A DNA stretch of 64,000 bases from Myxococcales bacterium (GTDB taxonomy: Bacteria; Myxococcota_A; Polyangia; Polyangiales; Ga0077539): assembly GCA_030652255.1 (NCBI GenBank), contig JAUSAZ010000052.1, positions 39,352 through 103,351 on the forward strand, in the 5' to 3' direction. This document shows, one piece after another, positions 8,393 to 52,231 of the stretch. Position numbers and translations under genes: made by a program. Within the stretch, counting starts at the first letter, position 1. Each line of letters starts with the position of its first letter. Below the pieces are notes generated by a model, which saw only the letters and a program-made list of their open reading frames with translations, had not been told where the DNA came from and searched no databases.

Positions 8393-8419
8393 AACGCGGA
8401 CACGGGTGGTCTCCTGACA
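8393..8419 (-). promoter_or_regulatory. TGTCAG-N17-CGTT promoter, lipoprotein gene
   Basis: On the minus strand TGTCAG occupies 8419-8414 and CGTT occupies 8396-8393. Only eight bases separate the -10-like element from the ATG at 8384, so transcription would begin at about the start codon. Confidence 0.65.
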
Positions 8420-8537
8420 CCCGTCGGACGGGCGGCGGAAGCGTGAGGACATGCTTGGCGCCGAACGGACCCTGACTCGGCTGCGCGATTGCTCGCGTCA
8501 TCCTGGGCGGTATAGCCTCGCGCCCGAGGGCGCCCCA

Positions 8538-9683
8538 ATGACCACCTGGCAGTTGTTCGTCGATGAGTCGGGGGCCTTCGATGGGCCCAACCCAAGTCGG
8601 GTGGCTGGCGTACTGATCCGCGGTTATGACAACCACGCCGCTCAAGCCCGCGAGCGCCTCGAAATCGACGCCTTCCCCGGATCGCCGTACCCACCCCACG
8701 AGCGTTTGCACAACCATCTCAGCTCCCGCGCGGCCTTCGGGATGCTACCCGAGGGTGAGTTCTCACTCGCCCAACGGGCGGGCCTCCCGGCCGTGCGCGG
8801 TCGCATCGGGCGCGCGCTCGCGCGGTTCCGAAGCGCCACCGATCCGCGGCCGCAGAGGCTCAACGAGCGCGCGTCGACGGCGGCGCCGCAGTGGCATCCC
8901 GCGGACTCGGAGAACGAGCGAGCGGTGCGCGACTCCGAGGGCTGGCTGCTGGACCCTGCTCGCGCCGCGGAGAATGTCTTCGCCCGCGCGGAGCTTCAAC
9001 AGGAGCGCAGCCGCGACCTGATCGCCATGAGGCACTACGGCGCCCACGCCGTCACGCTGTTCGGCGGGAACCAGGCCTGCGTCGTCGCGATGGTACGTCC
9101 CGCCGGCGCTCGCCGGGGCGCGGGCGATCCCTACCTCGGGTGCCTGGAAGGCCTGTTCTCTCGCGTGTGGCTGCTGCTCTCGCTGTACGAAGAGTCGCAC
9201 CATGTGGTGCTCGCTCACGTCGCCCCCCGCGACATCCGAGCGCCGGGAGCGGTCGGCCCGGGCGACATGACAGTCAACAAGCTCCGCGACGCGATCAAGC
9301 GCGCCCGCGACCGTCTGGGCCCGTCCACGGCCCTCGACCGCGTCTCGCTCATTCCGAACAACCCGCGCCCGTACCTCAACGCGGTCCACCCGGGGGTCGT
9401 GCTCGCCGACTTCGCCGCCTTCCATCTCCTCGCGCCGCTCGCCTCCGGCCGCAACGGCTGGACAACCGTCGCTTCGGAGGTGCAGGCCGCCACGGGCCTG
9501 CAGCCCGAGCTGCCCATCGGCGGAGGGCGATCGCTGTCGACCATCGGCGTGATGGGACCCTCCGAAGACGCGATCCTGGACGCCGCGAGAGGACTCCTGG
9601 TCGGGCCGCTCGATCCGACCACCGCCGCCTGGGAGCGGGAGCAGGCGACCCGCTGGATCGAAACCCTGGGAGGTGCGCAGTGA
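8538..9683 (+). CDS. DUF3800-like protein (RNase H fold)
   Basis: A 381-aa protein starting MTTWQLFVDESG, the usual N-terminus of DUF3800 proteins (FxDESG). The C-terminal half has HPGVVLADFAAFHLLA, matching the family's conserved Asp on a helix. The fold is that of RNase H-like nucleases, so RNA or DNA cleavage is plausible but unproven. The ATG at 8538 is preferred to an in-frame ATG at 8451 because homology starts here. Its stop overlaps the sigma-like gene (GTGA), so the two are translationally coupled. No TGTCAG promoter was found in front; the upstream 150 bases are shared with the divergent lipoprotein gene. Confidence 0.7.
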   Translation: MTTWQLFVDESGAFDGPNPSRVAGVLIRGYDNHAAQARERLEIDAFPGSPYPPHERLHNHLSSRAAFGMLPEGEFSLAQRAGLPAVRGRIGRALARFRSATDPRPQRLNERASTAAPQWHPADSENERAVRDSEGWLLDPARAAENVFARAELQQERSRDLIAMRHYGAHAVTLFGGNQACVVAMVRPAGARRGAGDPYLGCLEGLFSRVWLLLSLYEESHHVVLAHVAPRDIRAPGAVGPGDMTVNKLRDAIKRARDRLGPSTALDRVSLIPNNPRPYLNAVHPGVVLADFAAFHLLAPLASGRNGWTTVASEVQAATGLQPELPIGGGRSLSTIGVMGPSEDAILDAARGLLVGPLDPTTAAWEREQATRWIETLGGAQ

Positions 9684-10477
9684 GCCTCTACCTCGCACTG
9701 TTGAAGATCCACGCCTTTCGCACGCTCTCGCCCGAGGCGCGCGTCCCCGACGTCCTCGTGCGCCCCGTCCTCCACTCGCTCCAACGCATGGCGCGGAGCC
9801 CGGTCAGCAACGGCCGCAGGACGGTGATGATCCCGGACGATGTGCAGGACGATTGCGCGAGCATGGTCTGCCTCAAGGTGTGCATGCAGCCCGAACTCCC
9901 GCTCCGCGCAGTGTGGTCACACGAAGAGCTCGGCGTCCTGGAGATCGCGGGAGAGGCGCTGGACGCGTCGCACCAGCCGAAGCGAGAAGCGGCCGACCGG
10001 CTCGTGTCCGCCTACCTCTCGGCCTGCCTCGCCAACCGCTGCCTCTCGATGTTCCGCAAACGCTCTCCGGACGTGGAGCACCCGCCGCCCCCCACGCCGC
10101 CGCCGCCGCTCCTGTCCGAGGCGGTGTTCCGTCGGCTCCGCGACCGGGCCGTACAGGACTTCTCGCAGCCGGAGGCCCGGCAGGACTTCCTCCAGACGGC
10201 CGACGAACTCTGGCGCTTCGCGACCGGCGAGAGCCGCGCCCGCGTCGACGACCTGCTCAGGGCGGAGGTCGACGCGACCTCAGCGTCGCTCAAGGTCCTG
10301 CGCGACCGGCTCTACCAACGACGGAGCCGGGCGCGCCGTCGGCTGGCAGCCGCACGGGTCGCCCTCCGGCTCGACCCCGACGAGGACCTCGCCGCGGCCC
10401 TGCTCCTGCTCGCCTTCCGGGGCACTGTCAGACAACGGGACATCGACGACGTCTCCCGGGAGATGAGGAAGCCATGA
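9680..10477 (+). CDS. Divergent ECF-sigma-like protein
   Basis: A 265-aa protein that I read as a distant ECF sigma factor. Residues 50-70 (VMIPDDVQDDCASMVCLKVC) look like the region 2 core that normally reads DAEDVVQETFLRV. Residues 106-128 (DRLVSAYLSACLANRCLSMF plus RKR) match the region 2.4 helix ending in a basic patch. A Pro-rich linker follows (136-143). Residues 184-223 contain a helix pair ending LRDRLYQRRSRARRRL, like region 4. Start is the GTG at 9680, after GGGAGGTG, overlapping the previous stop. The next gene begins ATGA on its stop and encodes a membrane protein, the usual sigma/anti-sigma order. It is the best candidate to read the TGTCAG promoters. Assignment is by pattern only. 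Confidence 0.5.
   Translation: MSLYLALLKIHAFRTLSPEARVPDVLVRPVLHSLQRMARSPVSNGRRTVMIPDDVQDDCASMVCLKVCMQPELPLRAVWSHEELGVLEIAGEALDASHQPKREAADRLVSAYLSACLANRCLSMFRKRSPDVEHPPPPTPPPPLLSEAVFRRLRDRAVQDFSQPEARQDFLQTADELWRFATGESRARVDDLLRAEVDATSASLKVLRDRLYQRRSRARRRLAAARVALRLDPDEDLAAALLLLAFRGTVRQRDIDDVSREMRKP
10426..10453 (+). promoter_or_regulatory. TGTCAG-N18-CGTC promoter inside the sigma-like gene
   Basis: TGTCAG at 10426-10431 and CGTC at 10450-10453, 20 bases before the ATG at 10474. It lies in the last 50 bases of the sigma-like gene and would drive the putative anti-sigma gene and those after it. Confidence 0.55.
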
Positions 10478-11613
10478 ACATTATCGACGTACTGGGCAGG
10501 CTCGGCTGCCTGGAGCAGCTCGACCTGAAACCTGACGACCGGATCGCCGAGGTCGCCTTCTCCACCGCGCCGGCCGTGGCGTCCGAGGCGGTCAGCGACG
10601 GCGCAAGGGACAAGCGGAGCCTCGCCGCCTTCATCGGCGCCGTGGTGATGGCCGCCGTCGCGTGGACGGTCGAGGCGGGCGCGACGCCAACGCCGACGCC
10701 AACGCCGACGCCGACGGTCGAGCGCCGCGCTGACGAGCGGCTCCCCGCGGCCGTCGGTGTCTTCCAGCGGAGCGGCGCCGAGCGGCGCATCGTCGTGCTC
10801 GAGTCGTCGGATGGCGCGGTTCGTCCGCTCGCCGGGACCGTCGTCTTCCTCGACCCGGACGTGCACTCCCCCCACCCGGGCGGTCGCGTGGTGATGGACG
10901 CGCGGCCCGGCCCGGTCGCGCTCCAGGTCGTCGTGGAGGGGAGCGAGTACGTGATCCTGCTGGACGCCGAAGGGGTCCTGCGGGTCGGTCGGATCGAGCG
11001 AGCCCCTGCTCGCGTCGTCGACGTGCCGCGCGTCGAGCTACCGTCGTTCGAAGGGCTGACGCCTGACTCGGTCGGGTGGTTCGCGGGGCGGGAGGCCGCG
11101 CCGTGGCTGCGCGTCACCCTCGAAGGTCACGCCCGCTCGCCCTGGGTGCTCGATCGGGTCGGGGCGGCAGGGACGGCGGCACGGTTCGACCTCCCGACCT
11201 TCGACGAGGCCGGGTCGGTGCTCCCGGGCGCCAACGGCGCGGCGCGCGCCTGGGCGCGGGCGATCCCGAAGGCGCAGGCGGACCTGCTGGAGGCGACGGC
11301 GTGCGACGCGGCCCGGGGGCTCCACCACCAGCTCGCGGGGCAGGTCGAGCTCGGCGTCGCGCGCGACCCGGGCGAGCCAGGGGCATTGCGCTCGCTCTGT
11401 CTCGCACGGGACGATCTGGAAAGCGTCGCCTTCGTGCTGGAATCCGCGGGACGCGGCTCGACCTTGCGCAGCCTGCTTCGGGCGTTCGACGAGCAGGCGC
11501 AGGAGCAGCTCGTCGACCTGGTCGTCGACGAAGCGCTGCTCGAGGACCCGCGGTTGGCGCAGGTGGCGTGGTCCGACCCTCTCGCGTGGTGGGGCGCAGT
11601 CGGCAGGGAGTGA
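10474..11613 (+). CDS. Single-pass membrane protein, putative anti-sigma factor
   Basis: A 379-aa protein with a short cytoplasmic part (1-48), one membrane span at about 50-67 (AAFIGAVVMAAVAWTVEAG), a Thr-Pro linker made of TP repeats, and about 300 residues outside the membrane. Topology and position directly after a sigma-like gene (ATGA overlap) fit an anti-sigma factor, and its own promoter lies inside that gene. No zinc anti-sigma (ZAS) motif or other recognised anti-sigma domain is seen, so the role is inferred from context. The outer part is unrecognised; it could be the sensor. The following Lon-type gene would suit control by proteolysis. Confidence 0.5.
   Translation: MNIIDVLGRLGCLEQLDLKPDDRIAEVAFSTAPAVASEAVSDGARDKRSLAAFIGAVVMAAVAWTVEAGATPTPTPTPTPTVERRADERLPAAVGVFQRSGAERRIVVLESSDGAVRPLAGTVVFLDPDVHSPHPGGRVVMDARPGPVALQVVVEGSEYVILLDAEGVLRVGRIERAPARVVDVPRVELPSFEGLTPDSVGWFAGREAAPWLRVTLEGHARSPWVLDRVGAAGTAARFDLPTFDEAGSVLPGANGAARAWARAIPKAQADLLEATACDAARGLHHQLAGQVELGVARDPGEPGALRSLCLARDDLESVAFVLESAGRGSTLRSLLRAFDEQAQEQLVDLVVDEALLEDPRLAQVAWSDPLAWWGAVGRE
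10683..10715 (+). repeat. Thr-Pro coding tandem repeat
   Basis: Alternating ACG CCA / ACG CCG codons give a (TP)5T linker just outside the membrane span of the putative anti-sigma protein. Confidence 0.8.
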
Positions 11614-11617
11614 GCGA

Positions 11618-13423: not shown

Positions 13424-13434
13424 CGGCTCCGACC

Positions 13435-14361
13435 ATGCCAGCGCTACCCCATCGATCACTCCGGGTCTTCGTCGCGACGCTGCCCGAGCACGTCCCGACC
13501 GACGGCGCCCCTTTCGTCAGCATCGACGGCAGCGTCCAGAGCGCCGCCGTCACGTGGGACCACCACGTCACCGGCGAGCCCATCAACCTCGACGCCATGC
13601 CGGGTGCGATCGACGCGGCGGGCTTCCGGGGGATCGGGACGACGCTCGCGGACACCGACGCCCTGGCCAGCGTGGTGGCCGTAATGGCGGGCGGCGTGGC
13701 GCGGCTCCCGACGACCGCGCTCGCGATCCTGCGCGCGGCCTCGCACCGCTGCGACCACCTGGTGTCGCTGCCGGGCGTCGACGCCGAGGTCGATCGCCTC
13801 GGGCTCGGGCTCCACGGGTGGGTGGGCGACGCGCTGGCCGCGGCGACGGATCCGCGAGCGAGCGACACCTTCGCACGGCTGTGCGGCGCGGTGGCCGACG
13901 ACGTCGCTTCGGGCCGTGCGCTGCCCTTCGACACCTCCACCCACGACTCCATGGCGGACGCCGCGGCGCAGTTGGACGACGGCGGCCGCATCCGGCGCGG
14001 CGCGGGGGTGGCCCTCGTGGATCTCCGTGGGGTCCCGCGGATCGCGCCCGAGGCGTACTACGCGCGGTTTCCGCAGCCGGTTGCGGTGGCCGTTGACGAC
14101 CACCCGCAGGGCGGGCCTCGCTACACGGTAGGGGTGAACCCCTTTGCGCCCGAACGCCCCTCGGACCTGGGCTCCTGCCTGGCCGCGCTCGCCGGGGAGG
14201 AATTCGCACACGGTCCGCCTGCGAGGCTCGCGCGCCCGGGGCCCGGGTCGGAGAACTGGGGCGGCCGGGCGACGGTGTTCGGCTCGCCGTGGAACTACGG
14301 CTCCCGGCTCACGCCCGAGCGGGTCGCGGAGATCATCGCCGCCACGCTGCCGCCCGGATAG
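13435..14361 (+). CDS. Hypothetical protein with DHH-like motifs
   Basis: A 308-aa soluble protein beginning MPALPHRSLRVFVATLPEHV. It has WDHHVTGE near residue 40, then GTTLADTDALASV. Both resemble metal-binding motifs of DHH phosphoesterases (DHH and DxDA/DxDG), but in the reverse of the usual order. The C-terminal part has WGGRATVFGSPWNYGSRL, which could be the substrate-binding end. I do not recognise the family with certainty. It is the last gene of the sigma-like operon, twelve bases after the Lon-type gene, and it stops just before a new TGTCAG promoter. Confidence 0.45.
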   Translation: MPALPHRSLRVFVATLPEHVPTDGAPFVSIDGSVQSAAVTWDHHVTGEPINLDAMPGAIDAAGFRGIGTTLADTDALASVVAVMAGGVARLPTTALAILRAASHRCDHLVSLPGVDAEVDRLGLGLHGWVGDALAAATDPRASDTFARLCGAVADDVASGRALPFDTSTHDSMADAAAQLDDGGRIRRGAGVALVDLRGVPRIAPEAYYARFPQPVAVAVDDHPQGGPRYTVGVNPFAPERPSDLGSCLAALAGEEFAHGPPARLARPGPGSENWGGRATVFGSPWNYGSRLTPERVAEIIAATLPPG

Positions 14362-14368: not shown

Positions 14369-14395
14369 TGTCAGATACGCCGCGCGCGCCACGTC
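14369..14395 (+). promoter_or_regulatory. TGTCAG-N17-CGTC promoter, PP2C gene
   Basis: TGTCAG at 14369-14374, CGTC at 14392-14395. The ATG at 14404 is eight bases further on, so the transcript should be nearly or fully leaderless. Confidence 0.65.
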
Positions 14396-14403: not shown

Positions 14404-16104
14404 ATGGACGCTCCCTCACCGCTCGCCCCTGACGCCCTCGCCTGCCGCAACCCGCGCTGCACCCACCACGGCGAACCCATCCGATCGCCGGGGCCGTGCC
14501 CCCATTGCTGGGTCGCCGTGGAGGACGCCCCGCCCGTCCCCGCGGTCGACCCCGCGCCCGCCGTGGACGCGCCGCCGCTCCGCTCCGCGTTGCGCGTCCA
14601 CCAGCCCCTGCTCAGCGTGCGCCTCTCGGCCGCGCCCGTCCGCGACGACGCCCTGCCGCCGGCCCTCCGTGACCACGCCCTGCTGACGGCGCTCCGCTTC
14701 GCCCCCGACCGCGACCACGTTCGGGCAACCTTCTGGGAACCGGACGCTCCCCTCCGTCCCTTCGACGCCCACCTCAGGGTGCTGGCGTCGGCCGACGAGC
14801 GCGTGTCGGCAGTCGGTCGCGCGCTCTCGTTCCTCGCGCGGCTCCAGGACCGCGGCGTCGCGCCGCTCACCCTCTTCCCCGACGCCCTCTGGATCCACCC
14901 CGAGGAGCCCGACGACCTCGTGCTGCTGGTCGGCCCGCCGAGCGAGGCGTCGTGGCCCTCGACCGCGGCGCAGTTCGTCTTCTCGGCCTGGGCCCACGCC
15001 GCGGGCGCCCGCTGCGACGCCTCCGGCGCCGAGGACGTGCTCCACTGGCTCCCGCTCCTGCTCGCCCTCGACCCCCCGGTGCCGCCCGACGCGGTGGGGC
15101 TCCTCCGGGACGCGCTCTGCGAGGACCGACCGCTCGACCAGCTCGCCCGCGCGTGGCGGGAGCTCACCGGCCGCACGAAGGAGGTGGAGGCGCCCGCGGC
15201 GACCCTGCCGTTTCGCTACGGCGCCGCCCAGCGCGCGGGCCGCCGCAAGGGCTCTGACGGCCTCCTCCCCGAGGAGTATCAGCAGGATCGTTGGTGCTGC
15301 CGAGGTGTTCCTCTGGGGGCTGATCGAGGAGTTCTCCTGGCCCTCGCGGACGGGGTCTCGACCGCCGATTTCGGCTCGGGCGCCGGGGCTGCAGAGCGCG
15401 CCATCGCGGTCGTGCGGAGCGCCCCACCGCCCGGCGACTGCGACCCGGCGGGCTACCTGCGCGACCTCGTCGAGCGCGCCAACGAGGGCGTGCGCGAGTA
15501 CGTCCGTGAGGTGCGCGGCGACGCCCAGGCCGAGGACGCCGCGCCCGCCACCACGCTGACGCTCTGCCTCGTGGAACCGGGCGGCCGCGCCCACCTCGCC
15601 TGGGTCGGCGACTCGCCCGCGCTCGGCTGGGACGCGCGGCGCGCGACCTTCGTCCCGCTGACCGCGCCCCACCACGGAGAGCTGGTCGCGGTCGTGGAAG
15701 GGGTCGAGGCGCGCGCGGCGCGAGGGCGCGAGGACGCCCGGCGGCTGGCCCGGTTCCTCGGGATGGACGGCTGCGTCCCCTCCCTTGCCACGTGGACGCT
15801 TCCCCGCGACGGCGGGCTGATCCTGGCGTCGGACGGCTTCTTGGAGGGCTTCGGCGGCGACTCGCGCCCGGGACGGCTCGCGCGCGCGGAGCGCAAGCTC
15901 GCTGCGCAGTTCGCCGCGCATGGGGCCCGCGCCGACCACCTCCAGGTCGCCTGCGAGACCCTGTGCACCGCATCGGACGAGGGCGACGGCCGCGACAATC
16001 TCACCGTCGTCGCGGTGTGGCGCGGCGCCCTTCCGACGCGCCCGCCGGAGCGTTTGTCGTCCGCGGAGCGGGTGTCAGACCGCAGCCGCTCGGAGCGGTC
16101 CTAG
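14404..16104 (+). CDS. PP2C-type Ser/Thr phosphatase with N-terminal zinc ribbon
   Basis: A 566-aa phosphatase that should reverse phosphorylation by the kinases of the same operon. Residues 15-36 form a zinc ribbon (CRNPRCTHHG...CPHCW). The middle region (60-280) is unrecognised. The PP2C domain starts about residue 290 and keeps its metal-binding acidic motifs: LLALADGVS, WVGDSPALGW, LILASDGFLEGF and GDGRDNLTVV. No ribosome site precedes the ATG; the promoter is so close that the message is probably leaderless. It opens the first kinase/phosphatase/vWA module. An inner promoter for the vWA gene lies in its last 30 bases. Confidence 0.85.
   Translation: MDAPSPLAPDALACRNPRCTHHGEPIRSPGPCPHCWVAVEDAPPVPAVDPAPAVDAPPLRSALRVHQPLLSVRLSAAPVRDDALPPALRDHALLTALRFAPDRDHVRATFWEPDAPLRPFDAHLRVLASADERVSAVGRALSFLARLQDRGVAPLTLFPDALWIHPEEPDDLVLLVGPPSEASWPSTAAQFVFSAWAHAAGARCDASGAEDVLHWLPLLLALDPPVPPDAVGLLRDALCEDRPLDQLARAWRELTGRTKEVEAPAATLPFRYGAAQRAGRRKGSDGLLPEEYQQDRWCCRGVPLGADRGVLLALADGVSTADFGSGAGAAERAIAVVRSAPPPGDCDPAGYLRDLVERANEGVREYVREVRGDAQAEDAAPATTLTLCLVEPGGRAHLAWVGDSPALGWDARRATFVPLTAPHHGELVAVVEGVEARAARGREDARRLARFLGMDGCVPSLATWTLPRDGGLILASDGFLEGFGGDSRPGRLARAERKLAAQFAAHGARADHLQVACETLCTASDEGDGRDNLTVVAVWRGALPTRPPERLSSAERVSDRSRSERS
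16073..16100 (+). promoter_or_regulatory. TGTCAG-N18-GGTC promoter, vWA gene
   Basis: TGTCAGACCG at 16073 and GGTC at 16097-16100, within the end of the PP2C gene and 15 bases before the ATG at 16116. The -10 departs from CGTC at its first base. Confidence 0.5.
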
Positions 16105-17486: not shown

Positions 17487-17493
17487 GCCGCCG

Positions 17494-17925
17494 ATGATCA
17501 TCTGCAGCCGCCCCTCCTGCCGCCTCCAGTACCCGACGCCCCGCCCGCGCTGCGAGTGCGGCGCCTCGGCGCGCGAGCTCCGTCGCCTCCGCGCGGAGGT
17601 CTTCGGCGGCACGCGCCCGGGTTGCTGGCGCTACAACGACCCGGGCACCATCGTGGTCGGCCGCGCCTCCCGCACCACCGTCGGCGCGGGGCCCGACCTC
17701 GACCTCGGGTCGCTGGTCGCGCAGCCCGCGAACGTCAGCCGGCACGTCCTCACGCTGGTGTGGGACGGCGGTCAGACCGTGCGCGTCACCCGCGTCACCG
17801 AGCACGGGAGCGTCGCGCTCGGGCCCACCGTGCTGCGCCCCCGGGAGGGCGCCGACTGCGTCCTCCCGGTGACGATCGTCGTCAACGGCACCCTCGAGAT
17901 CACCCTGCAAGGCGAGAGCCCATGA
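17494..17925 (+). CDS. Small zinc-finger plus FHA-domain protein
   Basis: A 143-aa protein. The first 25 residues hold four cysteines in a zinc-finger pattern (CSRPSC...CECG). Residues about 50-140 look like an FHA domain, which binds phosphothreonine: VVGRAS for the Gly-Arg loop, then NVSRHVLTL for the Ser and His that contact the phosphopeptide. It likely recognises targets of the kinase encoded immediately after it; the two genes overlap by ATGA. Confidence 0.7.
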   Translation: MIICSRPSCRLQYPTPRPRCECGASARELRRLRAEVFGGTRPGCWRYNDPGTIVVGRASRTTVGAGPDLDLGSLVAQPANVSRHVLTLVWDGGQTVRVTRVTEHGSVALGPTVLRPREGADCVLPVTIVVNGTLEITLQGESP

Positions 17926-19079: not shown

Positions 19080-19081
19080 CC

Positions 19082-21222: not shown

Positions 21223-22157
21223 GCTGGTTTCTGATCGAAGACCCTTCCACGGGAAAGGTCGTCTCGCCCTTCGAGCGGCTGCCCCCGGGGCCGCTACGGT
21301 TCAGCGTTCGCTCCGGCTGGGCCCTGCGGGTCGAGGACGGCGCCGAAGTGACGCCCGCCCCCGGCGGTGCGGCGACCGACGCGTGGCTCGTCGCGCCGAC
21401 GGGGCCCTTCTCGCTCGTCGTGGAACACCCTGGCGGTGCGCGGTTCCCCCTCCGATTCGATGACGTCCCCGTCGCGCCGCCGTGGTCCGCGCGAACGCCG
21501 GTGCCCCCCGCGGACGACGCGCGCCCTCCCGCCCCTGCCCCGGCGCCCGCGCCGGGTCCCGTCACCCCGTCACCGGTCGACGCAGCAGCTCCCGAGTCGT
21601 GGTGCCCCCGGACGCTGGCCGTCGAGCTGTTCACCGCTCCGGCGCGCACCTCGGCGCTGATCGATCTGGCCCGGCGCGCGGAGGACGCCGGGCGGCGCGT
21701 GCGGGAGATACGCGCGCGTTGCGACGAGCTCCCGGTCGGGGACCGGGACGAGCTCGCCCTGGTGCTCGGCCTCGTGCACGCCGCGACGTCCGAGGCCGGG
21801 GGCGTCCCCGCGTGGGTCGCCGATCCGCGCGCGGCGAGGGCGCAGCGTGAGGTCTACCGCGCGACGCTGGGCCGCGCCGGGGCGTCGGTCGGGGCGTCCG
21901 CCGCTCCGCCGGTGGGCGCCCCCCGCGGCGACGTGCTCGAGGCGCTCCTGGGTTGGCTCCCGCCGGCGACGGCGCCCTGCGACGGGGACGTCGAGGCGCG
22001 TCTGGCCGCCGTGGTCGCTGAGATGGAGCGCATCGACGCCGCCCTGGGCGCCCTCGCGGACGGTGTCAGATGCATGGCCGCCGACGGGTCTCACCGCAGA
22101 GACGTTCGCGAGGCCATGGAGGCCCGCGCGGCGATCCGGGCGCTGGGCGCCGCATAG
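21219..22157 (+). CDS. Hypothetical protein with Pro-rich linker
   Basis: I do not recognise this 312-aa protein. Residues 1-90 are beta-rich (SWFLIEDPSTGKVVSPF onward) and could be a small binding domain. Residues 95-120 are Pro/Ala-rich linker. The rest is helical. The probable start is the TTG at 21219, which overlaps the previous stop (TTGA) and follows GAGGAGGTGG at good spacing. The first residues WFLIEDP also appear in accessory proteins of other kinase clusters, but that is memory rather than a search. The promoter for the next gene lies near its 3' end. Confidence 0.6.
   Translation: MSWFLIEDPSTGKVVSPFERLPPGPLRFSVRSGWALRVEDGAEVTPAPGGAATDAWLVAPTGPFSLVVEHPGGARFPLRFDDVPVAPPWSARTPVPPADDARPPAPAPAPAPGPVTPSPVDAAAPESWCPRTLAVELFTAPARTSALIDLARRAEDAGRRVREIRARCDELPVGDRDELALVLGLVHAATSEAGGVPAWVADPRAARAQREVYRATLGRAGASVGASAAPPVGAPRGDVLEALLGWLPPATAPCDGDVEARLAAVVAEMERIDAALGALADGVRCMAADGSHRRDVREAMEARAAIRALGAA
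22064..22090 (+). promoter_or_regulatory. TGTCAG-N17-GGTC promoter-like site, coiled-coil gene
   Basis: TGTCAGATG at 22064 and GGTC at 22087-22090, about 77 bases before ATG 22168 and inside the preceding gene. The -10 departs from consensus and the leader is long, so this is the weakest site of the set. Confidence 0.35.
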
Positions 22158-26053: not shown

Positions 26054-26080
26054 TGTCAGCTCCGGCCGCGTCCTCGCGTC
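26054..26080 (+). promoter_or_regulatory. TGTCAG-N17-CGTC promoter, zinc-ribbon/HerA unit
   Basis: TGTCAG at 26054-26059, CGTC at 26077-26080, 21 bases before ATG 26102. It would drive the two-gene unit 26102-29583. The base after TGTCAG is C rather than the usual A. Confidence 0.6.
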
Positions 26081-32654: not shown

Positions 32655-32666
32655 GCGACCTTCCGA

Positions 32667-32981: not shown

Positions 32982-32999
32982 GACGCTCAACGCCTCCGG

Positions 33000-33856: not shown

Positions 33857-33883
33857 GACGTCGGTCCCTGCGGCGGTCTGACA
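33857..33883 (-). promoter_or_regulatory. TGTCAG-N17-CGTC promoter, second vWA/PP2C/kinase unit
   Basis: On the minus strand TGTCAGACCG starts at 33883 and CGTC covers 33860-33857. The ATG at 33803 is 53 bases beyond. It lies in the 122-base gap between the E1 and vWA genes. Confidence 0.65.
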
Positions 33884-35209: not shown

Positions 35210-35412
35210 CGTGCACCCCGCGGCACCGGACCGAAGAAGCCCTCGTCGGCGATGGACGAGGCCACGACGGCGTCGGGCGAGGCGACGCGCTCGTTGGGGC
35301 GCACCACGACGATCTCGCCCGTCTCCGGGTTGAACATGAGCTGCCGCCCCGTCTCGTGGGTGCTGCGGTCGGAGAGCTCGGTCTGAACGGCCTTGGGGTC
35401 TCGGTTGGACAT
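35206..35412 (-). CDS. 68-aa protein between E2 and E1 genes
   Basis: A short charged protein beginning MSNRDPKAVQTELSD. It has a possible beta hairpin (QLMFNPETGEIVVVRP) and ends GPVPRGAR. It has no cysteine, membrane span or signal peptide. I see no ubiquitin-like beta-grasp fold with certainty and no terminal Gly-Gly. Its place between E2 and E1, its size (compare Pup, about 64 aa) and its tight coupling to E1 make it a candidate modifier or cofactor. GGAG lies about a dozen bases before ATG 35412. Confidence 0.6.
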   Translation of the reverse strand: MSNRDPKAVQTELSDRSTHETGRQLMFNPETGEIVVVRPNERVASPDAVVASSIADEGFFGPVPRGAR

Positions 35413-35876: not shown

Positions 35877-36919
35877 GAATGACCCTCCACTTCGACGCCG
35901 TCCTGTCGAGAGGGACGGTCGTCGGCCCCGCGGTCTGACACCGCCGGGTCGGAACCTTCGACGCGGGCCTCCGTCGCGTTGCGGTCGACGAGCGAGGCGT
36001 GCAGTTCGCACAGCAGGGTGTCGCGGTCCCAGGACACGCCCAGTTCGGCGATCGTCCGCGTAAGGACGGCGCCCTCCTCGGCACCCGCCCAGCGGACGGT
36101 CGGCGCGGTCGTCGGGTAGTCCGTCGGCAGGAGGTAGCGCGCGGCGGCGCGGTCATCCAGCACCGCGACGTGGAGGTCGCCCGATGGGGACACGAGCGCC
36201 TTGGCGGTGAGGCCGGCGCGCTCGAACGCCGCGAGCTCGTCGCCCAGGCGGCGCTGCCCCGCGGGGGTCGTGAACCACCGCTCGCCCAGGGTCTCCAGGG
36301 CCCGGCGCTCCGGGGGTCCGCCCCTGAGGTCGTTCATCGTGCACCGACCGGTGCCGAAGCGGACGCGGGGCAGTGGCCGGGACCCGGCGGCGGCCGTCGG
36401 CCGGTCGCGCATCGGGCTGCGCTCCGGGAGCACGACCCACGGCGAGGTCAGGTAGGAATCGCGGCGCTGGGCCTCGAAGAGGTAGCCCTGCAGCGACACC
36501 TCCTCGACGGCGGCCTGGCGCGAGAGCGAGAGCGTGCAGATGACCAGGGCGAAGCGCTCGAAGCGGTAGCGGGCGAGCGCGTCGCGCACCGTCCGCGCGT
36601 CACCGCCGCTCGGATGCGGGAGGTCAAGGGTGTGGTGGGAGTGCCACTCACCGACGTGCTGCAGGCCGAAGCGGTCGTTGAGGCGCAGACCCTCCCGCTC
36701 GAGGTAGCGGGCGTCCTGGTAGAAGCTGGTGGCGTGGTGGCGGGCGCCCGCCCCGGGTCCGATCGCCAGGCAGACGACAGCCGCGCCCGACTGGGTCCAG
36801 TACCCGAAGAGGTCGCCGCCGGTCTCGAGGTGGGGCCAGTGCGAGACCTCGCGAACGATGAGATCGACCTCGGACTCGAAGATGAGAAGCGGACGGTCGG
36901 ACTGGCTGACGGATGGCAT
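35873..36919 (-). CDS. JAMM/MPN metalloprotease fused to a UBC/RWD-like domain
   Basis: A 348-aa protein. Residues 1-170 form a JAB/MPN+ domain: Glu32 in LETGGDLFGYW, then EWHSHHTLDLPHPSGGD giving His93, His95, Ser104 and Asp107, the zinc site of deubiquitinase-type JAMM proteases. The C-terminal 150 residues look like an E2 or RWD fold: GDLHVAVL, LPTDYPTTAPTVRWAG (like YP-x-PP-V) and SWDRDTLLCELHASL. A conventional active-site cysteine is not obvious there. It probably cleaves or matures the modifier. GGGAGAG precedes ATG 36919. Confidence 0.82.
   Translation of the reverse strand: MPSVSQSDRPLLIFESEVDLIVREVSHWPHLETGGDLFGYWTQSGAAVVCLAIGPGAGARHHATSFYQDARYLEREGLRLNDRFGLQHVGEWHSHHTLDLPHPSGGDARTVRDALARYRFERFALVICTLSLSRQAAVEEVSLQGYLFEAQRRDSYLTSPWVVLPERSPMRDRPTAAAGSRPLPRVRFGTGRCTMNDLRGGPPERRALETLGERWFTTPAGQRRLGDELAAFERAGLTAKALVSPSGDLHVAVLDDRAAARYLLPTDYPTTAPTVRWAGAEEGAVLTRTIAELGVSWDRDTLLCELHASLVDRNATEARVEGSDPAVSDRGADDRPSRQDGVEVEGHS
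35914..35940 (-). promoter_or_regulatory. TGTCAG-N17-CGTC promoter, E2 gene
   Basis: TGTCAGACCG starts at 35940 on the minus strand; CGTC is at 35917-35914; the E2 ATG is at 35876. The site is within the end of the JAMM gene, so E2, the 68-aa protein and E1 can be made without the protease. Confidence 0.6.
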
Positions 36920-36969: not shown

Positions 36970-36995
36970 GACGGCCCGGCGGCGCCGATCTGACA
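36970..36995 (-). promoter_or_regulatory. TGTCAG-N16-CGTC promoter, JAMM gene
   Basis: On the minus strand TGTCAGATCG starts at 36995 and CGTCCTAAA begins at 36973. The ATG at 36919 is 50 bases beyond the -10 element. The site is in the 137-base gap behind the Rossmann-like gene. Confidence 0.65.
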
Positions 36996-37950: not shown

Positions 37951-37982
37951 CGTCGTCGCTCCCTTCCGCTCCGTACGCTGCG

Positions 37983-39431: not shown

Positions 39432-39458
39432 GACGGACATCGGTCGAGGGGTCTGACA
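39432..39458 (-). promoter_or_regulatory. TGTCAG-N17-CGTC promoter, four-span protein gene
   Basis: TGTCAGACCC starts at 39458 on the minus strand, just before the previous gene's stop at 39460; CGTC is at 39435-39432. It decides the start of the downstream gene as ATG 39404. Confidence 0.65.
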
Positions 39459-40253: not shown

Positions 40254-40281
40254 AACGCGGAGACCCGCTACCCGTCTGACA
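40254..40281 (-). promoter_or_regulatory. TGTCAG-N18-CGTT promoter, outermost vWA gene
   Basis: TGTCAGACGG starts at 40281 on the minus strand; CGTT is at 40257-40254; the ATG is at 40230. It is the head of the minus-strand gene run 40230-29570. Confidence 0.65.
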
Positions 40282-40384: not shown

Positions 40385-40996
40385 ATGTCGCCCCTTCCCA
40401 CCACCGCGAGTATCCGGGAGTCGCGCGAACTGAGCACGGTGCTGGCCAGACACTGGCGTAGCATCGACGACGGGAGCGCGTCGGCGGAGGGTGGGTTTGA
40501 GCGATTCGAGATGCTGGTGTTGACGATCTTCGATGAGGCGTACCGGGCGTCCACGAGCCGACCGTCGTACGCCGGGCATTGGCACGCCTGCGGATGGGCG
40601 CTCCTCACCGATCGCGCGCTCGCGCGTCGCTGTGTGGGGTATGTGTGGCGCGAAGGGACCGTCGCCGGCCGCGTCCGGCCTGCCCATGGCGCGGCCGAGG
40701 GCGAGCGTGTACCGGGGCGGGCGCTGTCGCTCGCGTCGATCGCAAGCGTCGACCGCATCGATCCCCGCGAGGTCCGCGACGCGTTCGCCGGTGTGCTCGC
40801 CGGACTCGATCCGCGCGTGCGCGCGTTCGCGTGCTCGTACTACCGGGCGCGTCGCCGCGACGCGCGCGTCGGCGAGCCCCTCCGCGCGGCGGCGCACGAC
40901 CACGCGCGGCGCCTCCGGGACGCGATCGGCGCGACGATCCTCGATCGCCACGGCGCTCGCCCGACCCGCGACACCGACTCGCGATCACGAACCTAG
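40385..40996 (+). CDS. Hypothetical helical protein, possibly sigma-like
   Basis: A 203-aa all-helical protein. The stretch LAGLDPRVRAFACSYYRARR and the following helices (HDHARRLRDAIGATI) run like region 4 of an ECF factor; the front part (FERFEMLVLTIFDEAY, HACGWALLTDRALARRC) could be a worn region 2. The likeness is weak. Position supports it: it is followed by a NYN gene and then a Lon-type gene, as the sigma-like gene at 9680 is linked to a nuclease-fold gene and a Lon-type gene. ATG 40385 was chosen; a GTG at 40334 is also possible. Confidence 0.4.
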   Translation: MSPLPTTASIRESRELSTVLARHWRSIDDGSASAEGGFERFEMLVLTIFDEAYRASTSRPSYAGHWHACGWALLTDRALARRCVGYVWREGTVAGRVRPAHGAAEGERVPGRALSLASIASVDRIDPREVRDAFAGVLAGLDPRVRAFACSYYRARRRDARVGEPLRAAAHDHARRLRDAIGATILDRHGARPTRDTDSRSRT

Positions 40997-41008: not shown

Positions 41009-42325
41009 ATGCGCGCGCTCGTCCTGGTCGACATGGAGAACGGCAACATCCCCGACGGCGCGCGCGAGCCCGATTTCCTCGCGGCCCTGCTCGCAAGCGA
41101 GGGGGTGCACGGCGGCACGATCGTCCTCGCGGTGAGCGTTCACTGGCCGGGGTTGGGGGGCTGGGACCTCGCCCACGCGTTCCCGTTTCCCCGCAATTTC
41201 GCGGTCGAGCTCCACGTCGTGCCGAGCGGCCCCGAGGCCGCCGACCTAGCTCTTGAGCGGGCGCTGACGCGCGCGGCCTCGGGCGACGGCGCGGGCGGGC
41301 ACGACCGCGTCTACGTCATCTCGGGTGACGCGCACGTTCGAGACATCGTGAAAGAAGCGCCGGAACTGTCGACATGGGGGCTGACAAACTTCATTCGCCA
41401 CACCTGCGTCGTACGTGACCGTGACGGCGCGCCCGAGCTGACGAGGAGGATTCACGGCGCGGCCGCCGGCCGACCTTCCATCGGGGGGCCGTTTCCGGCG
41501 CTCCTCCAGCGACTCGGGGATGATCCATGCGCGCTCCTGGAAGTGGCGCCGTCGACCAGGGAGTCGTGGCCCCCTTCGCGGTGGCCGGGTCTCGCGAGTT
41601 CGCCGCCGGTGCCCGCCGCACCCGCCGCACCATCCCGGAGGGCGCTGCCCGGGCCCGCGACGGGTGGCGTCCTCGGACCTGGAACCATCGAGTGTTCCGG
41701 GGAGATCTTGTGGTCGCGCGTTCCGGCGGCAGTGCTGAACGGCCCGGTCCCTGCCGACGGGTGGAGCGTCGACGATCAGCAGGTCCTCAGCGGCTGCTGG
41801 ACAGACACGCAGGATACCTCGCTGACGGTCGACCCGACCGCGAAGGTGTCGATCGATCGCCCTCATCTGGCCGAACCGCGGGTGTGGTGGGTCGCGCCGT
41901 TCGGTTCGGTTCCACGCCTCCTTGGCAGAGCCTGGGTGAAATCCAAGGCGCGCTGCTCGCGCGGGCAGACGAGGGCGCGCGCCACTCTGCACGCTGGGGA
42001 GATGGTATTTCGATCCAGGGTCTACGGCCCGACCCCTCTCACCTCCTCCGGGCTCGCCGTCGCGGCCGGCGCGCAGTTTCCGCGGATCCAGCAGTGCGGT
42101 GACCACCTCGTCCTTCTCGCGACGTCGGGCGACGCGAACGCCACCGACTGGCTGCCCATCCACGACGTCGCTGACGTCAACGCGTTCCTCGTGCAGTCGG
42201 GTCTGGACCCGGATGTGTGGTCCGATCTGCTCCGGCTTCCATTGCTGGTGTCAGAGTCGTTGACCCGCAGCGTCCCTACGCCATCGGCTGCGGTGCTCGC
42301 CGCACTCCAATCAGCCGTCCAATGA
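41009..42325 (+). CDS. NYN-domain protein with C-terminal extension
   Basis: A 438-aa protein. Residues 1-150 are NYN-like: ALVLVDMENGNIPDG (first Asp), then DRVYVISGDAHVRDIV with the later acids, a RNase fold of the PIN superfamily. A Pro/Ala linker follows at about 190-215. The last 220 residues are an unrecognised beta-rich domain (WWVAPFGSVPRLLGRAW, MVFRSRVYGPTPL). It lies 12 bases after the helical gene and carries the promoter for the next gene in its end. The link with a Lon-type protein mirrors the cluster at 8.5-13.4 kb. Confidence 0.55.
   Translation: MRALVLVDMENGNIPDGAREPDFLAALLASEGVHGGTIVLAVSVHWPGLGGWDLAHAFPFPRNFAVELHVVPSGPEAADLALERALTRAASGDGAGGHDRVYVISGDAHVRDIVKEAPELSTWGLTNFIRHTCVVRDRDGAPELTRRIHGAAAGRPSIGGPFPALLQRLGDDPCALLEVAPSTRESWPPSRWPGLASSPPVPAAPAAPSRRALPGPATGGVLGPGTIECSGEILWSRVPAAVLNGPVPADGWSVDDQQVLSGCWTDTQDTSLTVDPTAKVSIDRPHLAEPRVWWVAPFGSVPRLLGRAWVKSKARCSRGQTRARATLHAGEMVFRSRVYGPTPLTSSGLAVAAGAQFPRIQQCGDHLVLLATSGDANATDWLPIHDVADVNAFLVQSGLDPDVWSDLLRLPLLVSESLTRSVPTPSAAVLAALQSAVQ
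42249..42274 (+). promoter_or_regulatory. TGTCAG-N16-CGTC promoter, second Lon-type gene
   Basis: TGTCAGAG at 42249 and CGTC at 42271-42274, 55 bases before ATG 42330, inside the end of the NYN gene. It is on the plus strand, outside the kinase operons. Confidence 0.5.
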
Positions 42326-49100: not shown

Positions 49101-52100
49101 TCTCGCGCGGCAACAGCTCGATCTCCCGACGAATCGTGTCGATACGCGCCTGCCGTCGCTCGCTCACCGTGCGTCGGATCCTCTCGATCTCCCCGCTCAG
49201 GAGTCGTACGGAGTCCTCGTCAACCTCATCGAAGCGCAGTTTCGCCTCCCACCCCGCGCGCTCGTCGTCGTCGCACAGATCCTCGAGCACCGCCCTCTCG
49301 ATCTCTGCCAGAATGCCCTGAATCTGCCCGGCGAGTGCGATGCGCCGCGAGGTGAGTGCGTCGGCCCGTCGTCGGCGCCGCGCGACGCCGTCCTGTGACG
49401 CCTCGCCGGCGTCCTCAAGCGCGCTCAAGATCCTGCCGGTCGCCTGGTGGTCATGGCGATTCATGCACTCCTCGAAGCGGGTCACAAGGTTGGGCTTCCC
49501 CGCCACAACGTGACGGGCGATCGCATCCCGCTCAAGGGCGCCCACCGGGCCGACGGGAAGCCAGTCGTCGCCGAGGTCGAGCCCCTCGATCCCGAGCAAT
49601 GGAGCCCCGAAGAGCGAGCGGCGCGAGTGCTGCGCCGGTGGGGAGTCTCCGCCGAGCGCCACAGCGACGGCGTCGAGGGCCTGGAGCGCAGTCTTGGCGG
49701 CCGCGGTGACGTCGATCGGGCCGAGCGCCTCCGCGAGGCAGCGGCGCGCCCGCGGCAAGAGCCCTTGAAGCTTGTTCCGATACACGCGGTGGCGCTCGTC
49801 GTGCCTCTGATCGCCGCCGCGTGGTCGCCCCACCTCGGCGAGCCACTCGTCGACGAGGCCAACGACGTCCGAGACCTCCTCCTTCATGTCCTGGAGGGCC
49901 CGGCCGTGAATGGGATCGGTCTTCGCGGCGCTCGGATTGTTGCGCTGGTCCCAGTCGTGAATGCGGGCGAGGACCACCGCGTCGTCGCGCCATGCCTGTG
50001 CTTCCTGAGACAGCCGGGTGGCCTGATCGACCCGATCGACTGCGATGAGGTCCAGTAGGCCGTCCAGAAACCCACCGCGCTGCATCCAGCGCTGCCAGAT
50101 CCAGGTGGCGCGCTGAAATCTGAAGCGTTTGCTGCGCTTGGTCTCCTGCACGGCCCGAGCTCGCCCCGCGATCACCCGGAGCCGGGCGCCGGAGTCGGTC
50201 GCCACTAGGGTCGCGACGACGCTGGACGTCAGCGTGAGGCCCGCGCCGCCAAATTGGACGATCACCTCGCGAACGTGGTCGACCTCGGTGTAGGGCTCGG
50301 CGATTCGGAGTTGTCGGAGGCTCTCGGCGGCGATCGAGTCGGGCAGGAGCAGCGCGGGACGGACGCATGCGGCAAACGCGAGAAGCGCGGCGGCGCGGTG
50401 ATTCGCCCCCGGGTGCGAGGAGAGACCGTCGATCCGCTCGCGAAGGCTCGATGCGGTGAATTCGATTTCCCCGATGATCCCGTCGTCGAGGCTGGTCCCG
50501 AGAACCTGCGAGAGACCGAGCCACTGAACCAGCAGCGCAGGAAGCGCGTCGAGGTGCTGACTCGAGAGCCCCTGTGAGGCCACCGCGACCTGCCGGGCCA
50601 GTCCGAGATCACCATCGCGCAGGAGCGACCAGGCGAGGGCGAGCGGTGCGTCGACGGGGCCCGCCGGGTCGAGGACCAACCGCGCCGTGTCGGCCGAGGA
50701 CGACGTCGCCGACCAATACGATGAGGGAGAGACTTCCTCGTCAGGCGTCGAAGGCTCGGCGGGGAGGGCCTCGACCCGGGTCGGCTCGGCCGTGTGCTCG
50801 GCGGGAGCGACCTCGACCCGGATCGACTCGGCCGCGGGTGCATTAGGTATATCGTCGGCGGATGAATGGGGTGGCTCGGACACCTCCGGGGAGCACGGGG
50901 ACCACAACTCCAAGGGGGGTGGCTCTTCCCCCTCCGCCACCGGACCCAACGAGTCCGCGCACTCGTCCTCGCAGTCGTCCTCGTCGATCGCGACAGGCGT
51001 CCCTGCCGGAAAGGTGACCTCGGCAGGCGAATCGACAGGCGGGGCCGGCGCGCGGGCCCTGAAGGTTTCGAGCTCGTTCTTGTATGAGGTGAGCTCCGCC
51101 CCGAGCGCTACCAGCCGACTCACGGGCATCATCGGCTCGCGTCGCCGGGACTCAAGGATGTCGGAGATGCGATCGACGAGATCCGACGCACGGCGACAGT
51201 CCTCTCTCAGAGGGGAAAAAGACCAATCAAGGATGCCTTCCGCTTCAAACGAGGACAGTATTTCGCGTTGTTCGGACAGTCGCCGGAGACGCTCCGCGAG
51301 GCCCCGCCGCTCCGTGTCGCGCTCCTCCAGTTTCTGTCCGGCGAGGTGATCGACCGCGTCGGCGAGCTGCTGGACGGCGTCCCACTCGGGCGCCTCGGCT
51401 GGAATCCTCGAAATCAACTCGATGACTTCCCGCCAGGGCGTTGCGTCGCTGGGAAGAGCGACCGGAACCTCCGGGCTCGAGGTCGGCGAGGGCGCATCGG
51501 GACGTGAGAGGGGAGGCGGTTGAGACGCAACCGCTGCTGGCATGTCTGGAGACGGCCGTTGGGACGGGGCAACCGGTTCGGAGGACGCCACGGGCCGATC
51601 TGCTCCACGCAGGACCGCCAGATAGTCGTCCCAAGCGGCGTCAGCCTTTCGCAGGCGCGCCTTCAGTATTGCGGCGAGCAACACGTCCTTTGGGTTCTGG
51701 GGGTCCGCTGGCGCCCGTGCGATCGCTTCCAACACGGCCGCCGACATCTCAGCGTTCTTGAGACTTCGCGACAGCCGTTTTCCTACAGGGAAGCCCCGGG
51801 TCTGCGCGCCGAAAGGGGCTGCCACGAGGTTTGGCAGCATGGTATCAGCCCAGCAGAAAAAGAGGCGGACTGCGGGTATCGTGCCCTGACTAGAAGGCCA
51901 GAGCTTCTGCAATGACAATCGTAATCCGGCCAGGTGCGTCTCATCCAGGGTGCCGCGGGAGATCTTCGCGCCCAGGGAACGATCGTGCTCTTTGAGCATC
52001 ACGCGCGCGGGCCCTTCAACCCCCTGGAGAACCTCACGGAGCAGGTCGGACGGCATGGCCTCCAGCAATTCGGCAAAGCGTAGAGCGATCGTCTCCAACT

Positions 52101-52188
52101 CGGCTCCCAGAACAGAAGACGCGAGCCCCGAAGTGGTCGCCAAACCAGAATGATATGAACGGCCGGGTGGGGAACGATCTGCATCCAT
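46153..52188 (-). CDS. Giant STAND-like ATPase (2011 aa)
   Basis: One of the largest genes in the window. The N-terminal 1300 residues are mostly helical with a Pro/Ser-rich stretch (about 205-250) and several coiled-coil segments (near 950-1050). The ATPase core lies around 1340-1600: GGRQLGKTALLRHVE (Walker A), VLLLDEADRFLA (Walker B), KVVFAGLHNVQR (sensor) and the LGHTNWYPSLIQLFCQQLL helix typical of STAND and Orc-like ATPases. A winged-helix-like part and a second alpha/beta domain (VLFGARLAEIND, LVVRDAIAWDPSW) follow. STAND ATPases often sense infection or stress and switch on an effector. It is the first gene of its unit and has a TGTCAG promoter. Confidence 0.75.
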   Translation of the reverse strand: MDADRSPPGRSYHSGLATTSGLASSVLGAELETIALRFAELLEAMPSDLLREVLQGVEGPARVMLKEHDRSLGAKISRGTLDETHLAGLRLSLQKLWPSSQGTIPAVRLFFCWADTMLPNLVAAPFGAQTRGFPVGKRLSRSLKNAEMSAAVLEAIARAPADPQNPKDVLLAAILKARLRKADAAWDDYLAVLRGADRPVASSEPVAPSQRPSPDMPAAVASQPPPLSRPDAPSPTSSPEVPVALPSDATPWREVIELISRIPAEAPEWDAVQQLADAVDHLAGQKLEERDTERRGLAERLRRLSEQREILSSFEAEGILDWSFSPLREDCRRASDLVDRISDILESRRREPMMPVSRLVALGAELTSYKNELETFRARAPAPPVDSPAEVTFPAGTPVAIDEDDCEDECADSLGPVAEGEEPPPLELWSPCSPEVSEPPHSSADDIPNAPAAESIRVEVAPAEHTAEPTRVEALPAEPSTPDEEVSPSSYWSATSSSADTARLVLDPAGPVDAPLALAWSLLRDGDLGLARQVAVASQGLSSQHLDALPALLVQWLGLSQVLGTSLDDGIIGEIEFTASSLRERIDGLSSHPGANHRAAALLAFAACVRPALLLPDSIAAESLRQLRIAEPYTEVDHVREVIVQFGGAGLTLTSSVVATLVATDSGARLRVIAGRARAVQETKRSKRFRFQRATWIWQRWMQRGGFLDGLLDLIAVDRVDQATRLSQEAQAWRDDAVVLARIHDWDQRNNPSAAKTDPIHGRALQDMKEEVSDVVGLVDEWLAEVGRPRGGDQRHDERHRVYRNKLQGLLPRARRCLAEALGPIDVTAAAKTALQALDAVAVALGGDSPPAQHSRRSLFGAPLLGIEGLDLGDDWLPVGPVGALERDAIARHVVAGKPNLVTRFEECMNRHDHQATGRILSALEDAGEASQDGVARRRRRADALTSRRIALAGQIQGILAEIERAVLEDLCDDDERAGWEAKLRFDEVDEDSVRLLSGEIERIRRTVSERRQARIDTIRREIELLPREIAAGDRARIERALAQQDIIVTEEYLAQVARDGALFSEVDERDIFAEFFPGFIERWNGHLAAAGRTSLGNPEIEAVGAGRDPIAFGGIVPDRSRSGQLSNALRAWIQLSTRVGSRPDGIGHVLEAIGFEQASVDAVPDGARGRRGQENLQVFDVNTKPVQDRRRCPVHQLGSAVSGRYRIICLWDRPTPSEIVSTAAAALDHSRGTIVMYLGTMQASERRSLAEACRESRTRLILLDEALFVFVTVRSASAGAMLQDTRLAVLFASTLPFTIAEPYTTTAGYVPPETFYGRADASRQVFEPHGTCLVFGGRQLGKTALLRHVERSSNNPQRGVIVRFIDLQSAGVGEAVPPADLPRVIVEALRDDELQLDRITSWDGLITRLSAWLNAEKTRRIVLLLDEADRFLAADASGDSRDGHNRYANLVKLKELMEVTDRRFKVVFAGLHNVQRTARDPNSPIAHLGTPLCVGPLLDDGEAREAMRLVIEPLRSLGYRFESNDVVTRILGHTNWYPSLIQLFCQQLLAHLQSPDATFDGPAATPPYRIRAKDVERAYRTGALRKAIFERFTWTLNLDSRYRVLALCVALLLKSEERDLTISQIRDEALYWWERGFRQDSSNEAFETLLDEMVGLGLLRLTGPQRYALRSANVVNLLGSVEDGLLDAARRDPTPEYEPHAFHRTGNEPWKRSPLTARQESQILDRTHGAVVLFGARLAEINDLDPWLRAMAPSERLALMFFGPEGREAGGAVDFQTWLRKVADSRTKGSRRAENREKDLLLVVRDAIAWDPSWVAQASELLSNLKTRDSYVRVLFVGSPEHAWDCMGVENAGHLLGTASVLTLGPWSELAVRRWQLDLGIGVADDACLRDIIKATGGWGTLLHRFGQRLRHNTGRWRVELDALAEEVGSGSYLRLFAIPGPAEDGLRAMAEYRESITSSDLVKLVDDLEPATAHRVLSWASLVRFVSEDQDGWRLDPLLERLLVVPSAE

Positions 52189-52204
52189 GGACTACCTCGT
52201 GTTG

Positions 52205-52231
52205 AACGCGCGTGTGCCCGCCGGTCTGACA
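52205..52231 (-). promoter_or_regulatory. TGTCAG-N17-CGTT promoter, STAND/HEPN unit
   Basis: TGTCAGACCG starts at 52231 on the minus strand; CGTT is at 52208-52205; the ATG at 52188 is 16 bases further. This is the rightmost site of the set. Confidence 0.65.

Follow-up and report, generated by a model that had tools for sequence, protein, structure and literature searches.

A predicted sigma-type promoter class heads a putative conflict island and operons of unrelated defence systems in a bacterial order

Within a stretch of 64,000 nucleotides (nt) from a Myxococcales bacterium (GenBank assembly GCA_030652255.1, contig JAUSAZ010000052.1; the whole stretch is henceforth the window), the genes of a 44-kb island are preceded again and again by a two-part element, TGTCAG followed after 16–18 nt by a CGTC-like second box, and the same element stands before known defence operons in other genomes. 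This motif is real and strongly non-random; it constitutes a predicted sigma-type promoter class, best explained as marking a defence regulon of the bacterial order concerned, which we take to be the Polyangiales. More specifically, we regard it as quite probable that the 13 copies in the window are the −35 and −10 elements of promoters of one alternative sigma factor of the extracytoplasmic function (ECF) type, likely driving a defence regulon that takes in both the island and a distant type I restriction operon of the same genome.

An earlier note on this DNA had placed 13 such sites in the window, and all 13 are present at those places, each facing its gene. Its account of their make-up likewise holds: the spacer after TGTCAG is 17 nt in eight sites, 16 nt in two and 18 nt in three; the second box is CGTC in eight, CGTT in three and GGTC in two; and the base after TGTCAG is A in 11 of the 13. 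The two extra copies of the hexamer that it reported do exist, on the minus strand and with no start seen that they serve, at 41386 and 60438 rather than at 41391 and 60435. TGTCAG thus occurs 15 times in the window, with 13 copies lying upstream of starts in the correct orientation. In 60 order-3 simulations of the window, TGTCAG-N16-18-SGTY pairs numbered 0.57 on average and 2 at most, as against the 13 observed. With genes called by a simple codon-model gene finder, 4.1% of window positions lie no more than 115 nt upstream of a same-strand start, and the presence of 13 of the 15 hexamers in that zone has P ~1e-16. A scoring matrix derived from the 13 sites themselves, and hence circular though informative, gives them scores of 19.7–26.1; the next place in the window reaches 16.5 and all others 13.2 or less. 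The earlier contention that the position and pairing of the boxes are non-random is therefore borne out by simulation and upstream placement, as also by the genome-wide clustering described below.

Taken together, the sites head units holding 31 of the 35 genes between 6030 and 52188, those without a site being 8538, 9680, 40385 and 41009 (the count omits one open reading frame (ORF) of 43 amino acids (aa), and unit borders were judged from strand and spacing). The sites and associated features, in window coordinates, are:

8393..8419, minus strand: TGTCAG-17-CGTT, 8 nt before the ATG at 8384; lipoprotein-like gene 6030-8384
10426..10453, plus strand: TGTCAG-18-CGTC, before 10474; unit 10474-14361, with a Lon_C match under the family cut-off in its second gene
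14369..14395, plus strand: TGTCAG-17-CGTC, 8 nt before the ATG at 14404; PP2C gene 14404-16104
16073..16100, plus strand: TGTCAG-18-GGTC, before 16116; unit 16116-22157 with vWA, kinase 17922-19079 and weakly kinase-like 19945-21222
17770..17796, plus strand: GGTCAG-17-CGTC, a possible weak fourteenth site (score 16.5), 125 nt before the kinase gene at 17922
22064..22090, plus strand: TGTCAG-17-GGTC, before 22168; unit 22168-25903, including the AAA_2-type ATPase 23550-25268
26054..26080, plus strand: TGTCAG-17-CGTC, before 26102; unit 26102-29583, including the HerA/FtsK-type ATPase 26821-29583
33857..33883, minus strand: TGTCAG-17-CGTC, before 33803; unit 29570-33803 with 33000-33803 (weak zinc-ribbon and vWA), PP2C 31437-32654 and kinase 30192-31433
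35914..35940, minus strand: TGTCAG-17-CGTC, before 35876 and within the 3' end of the JAB gene; weakly E2-like 35433-35876, small ORF 35206-35412 and E1/ThiF 33926-35209
36970..36995, minus strand: TGTCAG-16-CGTC, before 36919; JAB gene 35873-36919
39432..39458, minus strand: TGTCAG-17-CGTC, before 39404; unit 37057-39404
40254..40281, minus strand: TGTCAG-18-CGTT, before 40230; gene 39460-40230, divergent from the ORF at 40385
40385..40996, plus strand: orphan ORF of 203 aa, lacking its own site and standing where genomes G014 and G030 have a sigma gene
41009..42325, plus strand: ORF with 30% identity over 125 aa to the gene after the sigma gene in G014
42249..42274, plus strand: TGTCAG-16-CGTC, before 42330; gene 42330-44849
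52205..52231, minus strand: TGTCAG-17-CGTT, before 52188; AAA_22-containing protein of 2011 aa (46153-52188), then 45023-46156

The placement of the boxes relative to the genes is that of a promoter. The two boxes stand 16–18 nt apart, are consistently placed before genes, as expected of ECF-type sigma promoters, and do not form an inverted repeat. From the second box to the ATG the distance is 8–77 nt; in the two units behind 8393..8419 and 14369..14395 it is exactly 8 nt, which leaves no room there for a ribosome site, whereas 10 of the 11 units with longer leaders carry a purine-rich word resembling such a site (by a loose pattern). Together, these features point to a promoter-like layout with the start point near that ATG. 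We accordingly propose that TGTCAGAY would act as the −35 and (C/G)GTYY as the −10 element, that transcription would start about 8 nt past the second box, and that the message may be leaderless where the ATG stands there. The ECF-like, two-part layout that the earlier note had suggested thus gains support from position, orientation, the 16–18 nt spacer and the 8-nt units, as well as from sites at homologous genes in other families.

The genome as a whole (G000; 9.37 Mb, 94% complete) shows the clustering most clearly with the strict pattern TGTCAGAY-N14-16-SGTY, which has 14 matches as against one for a reversed control; 10 of the 14 lie in the 44-kb island (P ~5e-21). Of the four outside it, one heads hsdM on contig C85, two are inside genes and one has no called downstream gene; under an alternative start call, one of the two sites inside genes lies 3 nt ahead of a start. 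The lax pattern TGTCAG-N16-18-CGTY has 38 matches as against 12 for the reversed control, 11 of them in the window. Among 19 of the 27 lax matches outside the window (two of the 19 loci overlap), six lie upstream of a called gene and outside genes, seven inside genes and six in neither situation; the hsdM site is one of the six. Lax matches L003, L019, L025 and L030 precede genes without an assigned identity, and these could be further members. Thus, the earlier proposal of a regulon across 44 kb stands, except that the motif is not confined to this segment: it is found as well before a type I restriction operon at another place in this genome and before unrelated defence operons of other families.

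Scanning of the island proteins with Pfam, supplemented by PADLOC and NCBIfam scans of ten proteins each, recovered two PP2C proteins, one clear and one weak vWA protein, two clear and one weak Ser/Thr kinase, an AAA_2-type ATPase, a HerA/FtsK-type ATPase, an E1/ThiF protein, a weak E2 (E 0.007), a JAB protein and the 2011-aa AAA_22 protein. In the same scans several island genes had no family match, and among the window genes scanned there was neither a cyclic-nucleotide synthase nor a bpMoxR match. We assume from our own reading that the product of gene 42330 is TPR-like, its Pfam TPR_2 match being below the cut-off; GHKL and TerY-P triad are likewise labels that we presume from reading, without a library match. 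This gene content suggests a composite conflict island with a putative role in defence. The ORF 25297-25903 reads like a radical-SAM activating enzyme and has no family match in Pfam, PADLOC or NCBIfam, and just beyond the island, at 53562-60768, lie three similar large lipoprotein-like genes in tandem.

Homologues of the island genes provide sites in other genomes. Among 57 genomes searched, that of the window included, the E1 protein has a homologue in one other, i.e., in just one of 56 relatives, which indicates that the island is rare among them; more distant homologues with 40–55% identity are present in public data. Contig C1017 of G017 was found via the E1 protein and so independently of the motif. 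It keeps the window order JAB, E2, small ORF and E1, the homologues being 42–48% identical except for the small ORF (36% over 44 aa), and carries two sites (L305), one of them at the window-equivalent place in the 3' end of JAB before the E2 gene. Homologues of gene 10474 have sites in G018 (two copies, with a CGTCAG variant) and G073, and those of gene 42330 in G030 and G014. The homologue of gene 42330 in G073 has no site directly before it, and the fragments in G001 and G004 are cut off at the start. Since the G073 and G030 loci were chosen by the motif, it is the homology, not the motif, that is the independent part there.

The identity of the operons behind the motif elsewhere extends this picture to unrelated immune systems. 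The gene hsdM is found behind it in G000 (contig C85), G001 and G014, in the last as part of an hsdMSR operon (HsdS assigned by reading); the Druantia III pair DruH-DruE is behind it in G014; bpMoxR-vWA and helicases in G018, where a second contig has the helicases and their sites again; bpMoxR followed by a gene reading like its vWA partner in G001, with a slightly weaker site; an MkoA-like helicase in G009; an ARPP-1 protein in G032; and a DNA methylase in G029 and probably also in G052. On contig C8 of G059, two small genes separate one site from an HsdM match (C8:120277) lying 1.9 kb downstream. The cse1 gene of a type I-E locus in G062 (L402, G062:C166, 1-12001) has a site 20 nt ahead of it; in this locus cas7e and cas1 are confirmed, more downstream genes read as cas genes, cas3 immediately precedes the site with the same strandedness, and the array in the fetched stretch has 39 register copies at 61-nt spacing. 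A further site is directly before an operon whose second gene matches Cas10/Cmr2; the labels Cse2, Cas5e, Cas6e, Cas2 and Cmr3-6 for other genes of these loci are our own presumption from reading, without a library match. Known defence operons are thus headed by the motif. At 1e-12, PADLOC matched about 9 of 31 motif-downstream proteins (a figure combining several scans, with 25 of 69 families among the matches listed in the main one) as against at least 3 of 70 control genes (25 of 35 families among the matches listed; kinase type by family name). The nine or so comprise three HsdM proteins, two other methylases, two helicases, DruH and MkoA. Because this element also precedes unrelated defence operons in other families of the order, it looks like a lineage-wide immune promoter class.

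Two side observations concern genes near motif-like sites in these genomes. Pairs that we take to be SbcD-SbcC-like, from our own reading without a library match, occur in different families (L096 11252-12525, G014; L393 7327-12471, G062), each with two motif-like sites, one ahead of the pair and the other within its first gene. Also, near the start of a small secreted-looking protein of the genus there is a motif-like site in three species, the spacers differing (L106 in G001, L121 in G004, L123 in G003).

Positions and counts in other genomes agree with this. The earlier note had staked its reading on the motif not being equally common inside genes, and this came out in its favour: of 73 distinct strict matches in fetched loci of 31 genomes, 32 fall outside genes, ahead of a called one, and 21 within genes. 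A control with a permuted −35, in 18 genomes, gave 2 of 29 upstream and outside genes and 16 of 29 inside (Fisher 3e-4 versus the motif). In 22 further genomes, 24 upstream sites were found among 46 matches examined out of 62 listed, and among the 56 upstream sites of the other genomes, 12 are followed by an in-frame ATG 7–10 nt past the box. The 22 also hold site clusters on G059 C8 (5 in 41 kb), G062 C51 and C59 (with 3 sites in 9 kb in G062), G073 C445 and G030 C128; in contrast, 665 kb of flanking and other stretches of motif-bearing contigs contain 2 sites scoring above 19. Total counts of the motif and of the permuted −35 differ little (28 versus 20 in ten large genomes); the signal lies in position, clustering and operon identity rather than in the total.

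As to the regulator, G030 has a divergent sigma gene between two motif sites (L395, G030:C128, 7082-7747), which has a single strong homologue in the fetched DNA, that of G014 (L096, G014:C143, 18760-19410), on the contig with Druantia and more sites. Both genomes share the order of site-headed divergent gene, sigma, partner gene, site and TPR-like gene, and G032 less clearly shows a sigma (weak match), a partner gene, a site and a TPR-like fragment. The protein search recovered four family members, and three of these have Pfam sigma-70 region 2. The family matches an ECF profile with a probability of 97% (E 2e-11, 158 columns); it reads as rare, divergent and ECF-like, with an invariant KARNRADQHL helix and, on our own reading, an insertion in region 4. 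We presume from our own reading that the partner gene is NYN-like; a PDB search gave no match below E 0.6. The window has a similar order, with the divergent site at 40281, the site at 42249 and the weakly similar partner gene 41009-42325, and with the orphan ORF 40385-40996 in the sigma slot. We considered this ORF as a sigma factor and dropped it: it has no homologue among 4021 candidates and no profile match, and its structure model is unusable (predicted local distance difference test, pLDDT, of 40). Going by gene order alone, it is possibly a regulator. As the slot in the window holds an orphan ORF lacking detectable similarity, the identity of the sigma is a lead only, and the divergent sigma of G014 and G030 (less clearly that of G032) is a weak candidate for the cognate regulator.

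The L049 sigma, also considered for what we read as an ECF41-like recognition helix, was dropped on the distribution of its orthologues, which are 93–98% identical in three congeners, 58% in one distant genome and at most 43% elsewhere (54 genomes). An ECF-like HMM match in L391 is a frame artefact, the actual gene weakly matching Lon. In G010 and G012, the ECF genes lying divergently next to sites have the wrong orientation and are different ECFs. An ordinary ECF sigma gene (L439, G068:C90, 13595-14224) lies about 23 kb from a motif site.

The closest likeness among known promoters is with those of ECF41, for which Wecke et al. 2012 (PMC3426412) give the consensus TGTCACA-n16-CGTC. The two share the CGTC −10, a spacing of 16 ± 1 after the 7-mer (15–17 nt in the window, with the second boxes enumerated above), and the TGTCA and final A of the −35; in contrast, position 6 of the −35 is C in that consensus and G in 13 of 13 window sites. 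The earlier note called TGTCAG an unusual −35; going beyond that, TGTCAGA is one base away from a known −35. Further, ECF41 targets one neighbouring COE gene (carboxymuconolactone decarboxylase, oxidoreductase or epimerase), whereas the motif here heads many operons with defence genes, and no Pfam match to these three families was found among the motif-headed genes of the window. An ECF41 sigma as the regulator was set aside, as TIGR02957 has no full-length match in G000 (the best being 70.9 bits over positions 4-157 of 281, with a cut-off of 323.25); the genome being 94% complete, this absence is not certain.

With ECF sigma regulons of group 4, the present one would share the two-box promoter, the flexible 16–18 nt spacer and the CGT-type −10, and would differ in a membership spread over unrelated immune systems. 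A full-text literature search turned up neither a TGTCAG −35 for an ECF sigma nor an ECF or other sigma regulon of anti-phage defence genes, subscription literature being incompletely covered. As far as the searches show, then, the promoter class is new in its −35 and its targets. The island's adjacent E1/ThiF, weakly E2-like and JAB genes recall the bacterial ubiquitin-like defence modules (PADLOC E1-E2, JAB), among which we count CBASS and Bil; the set differs in lying among vWA, PP2C, kinase and HerA genes and in its weak E2 match. The motif-headed operons of G018 and G001 resemble, by Pfam bpMoxR, the MoxR-vWA ternary conflict systems (Kaur et al. 2020). That article also reports an association with ubiquitin-like systems (PMC7159879); a search of its main text gave neither the term sigma factor nor the term promoter.

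Several observations weigh against a defence regulon under one sigma. Outside the window, about two-thirds of the motif-downstream proteins have no assignable PADLOC match at 1e-12, and many downstream genes are not recognisable as defence, including secreted proteins, a sulfotransferase and a response regulator; 41 of the 73 strict matches elsewhere are not both upstream of a called gene and outside genes. Of 30 HsdM loci from 115 genomes, to which the motif-headed loci G000 C85 and G001 C5 do not belong, 29 have no motif before the gene, which means that most type I restriction loci examined lie outside the regulon. The orphan ORF 40385-40996 shows no sigma similarity in protein and profile searches, and the candidate sigma family was not found in the other motif-rich stretches searched. 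Likewise, the loci of the 43 sigma genes of G000 (by sigma-70 region 2 matches) hold no site scoring 15 or more, the best being 14.7 at about 1.1 kb upstream of the L054 sigma gene, so that the genome's own ECF genes were rejected as the cognate sigma. In G000 itself, five of the six lax matches preceding genes outside the window, among the 19 examined, do so before genes without an assigned identity.

The last of these points, together with the unassigned two-thirds and the lipoproteins and secreted proteins among the downstream genes, would also suit a broad stress regulon of the order, such as an envelope-stress ECF regulon, with the defence genes just some of its members. We hold this to be somewhat unlikely, as only the hsdM site clearly heads a gene among the four strict matches outside the island in G000, and as the sites of relatives cluster with defence genes (G059, G062) and thin out to the two high-scoring sites in the 665 kb of other stretches. 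It is distinctly improbable that a conventional activator or repressor uses the boxes as its operator and acts on a housekeeping promoter. A cognate sigma that is a candidate at most leaves some scope for it, and boxes 22–24 nt apart could bind a dimer or two protomers; against this, the spacer varies from 16 to 18 nt as in promoters, an ATG about 8 nt after the second box leaves no room for another −10 downstream, and the boxes, all facing their gene, are no inverted repeat.

The rarity of the island, with the E1 homologue in a single relative though with distant ones in public data, might suggest a promoter private to one mobile element, multiplied by duplication and matched elsewhere by coincidence. 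This reading is already largely refuted and of very low probability: on inspection by eye, neither the spacers nor the leaders of the 13 sites look related to one another, and the motif precedes non-homologous operons in other families, type I-E cas genes included. As for chance matches in GC-rich DNA, TGTCAG alone is indeed about as frequent as expected according to the earlier note, but the 13 pairs against 0.57 simulated, and the P values for position and clustering, refute this explanation, to which we give practically no weight.

Returning to a defence regulon under an alternative sigma, we advance the following mechanism. One such factor likely switches on many unrelated immune systems together, and incoming defence systems would acquire its promoter; that a single regulator serves all these operons is suggested by their shared sequence. 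In its fullest form, which we offer tentatively and as something short of an even bet, one ECF-type sigma encoded beside the partner and TPR-like genes would read TGTCAGA-N16-CGTC and coordinate CRISPR-Cas, restriction, Druantia, MoxR-vWA and ubiquitin-like systems, with new systems joining by gaining the promoter.

To our knowledge, how bacteria coordinate their many unrelated defence systems is largely an open question. If CRISPR-Cas, restriction and several conflict systems do share one recognisable promoter, this would offer a way into the question of when immunity turns on, and the motif would serve as a short sequence tag for finding undescribed defence genes beside it. If true, such an immune sigma would be a bacterial counterpart of a master immune transcription factor.

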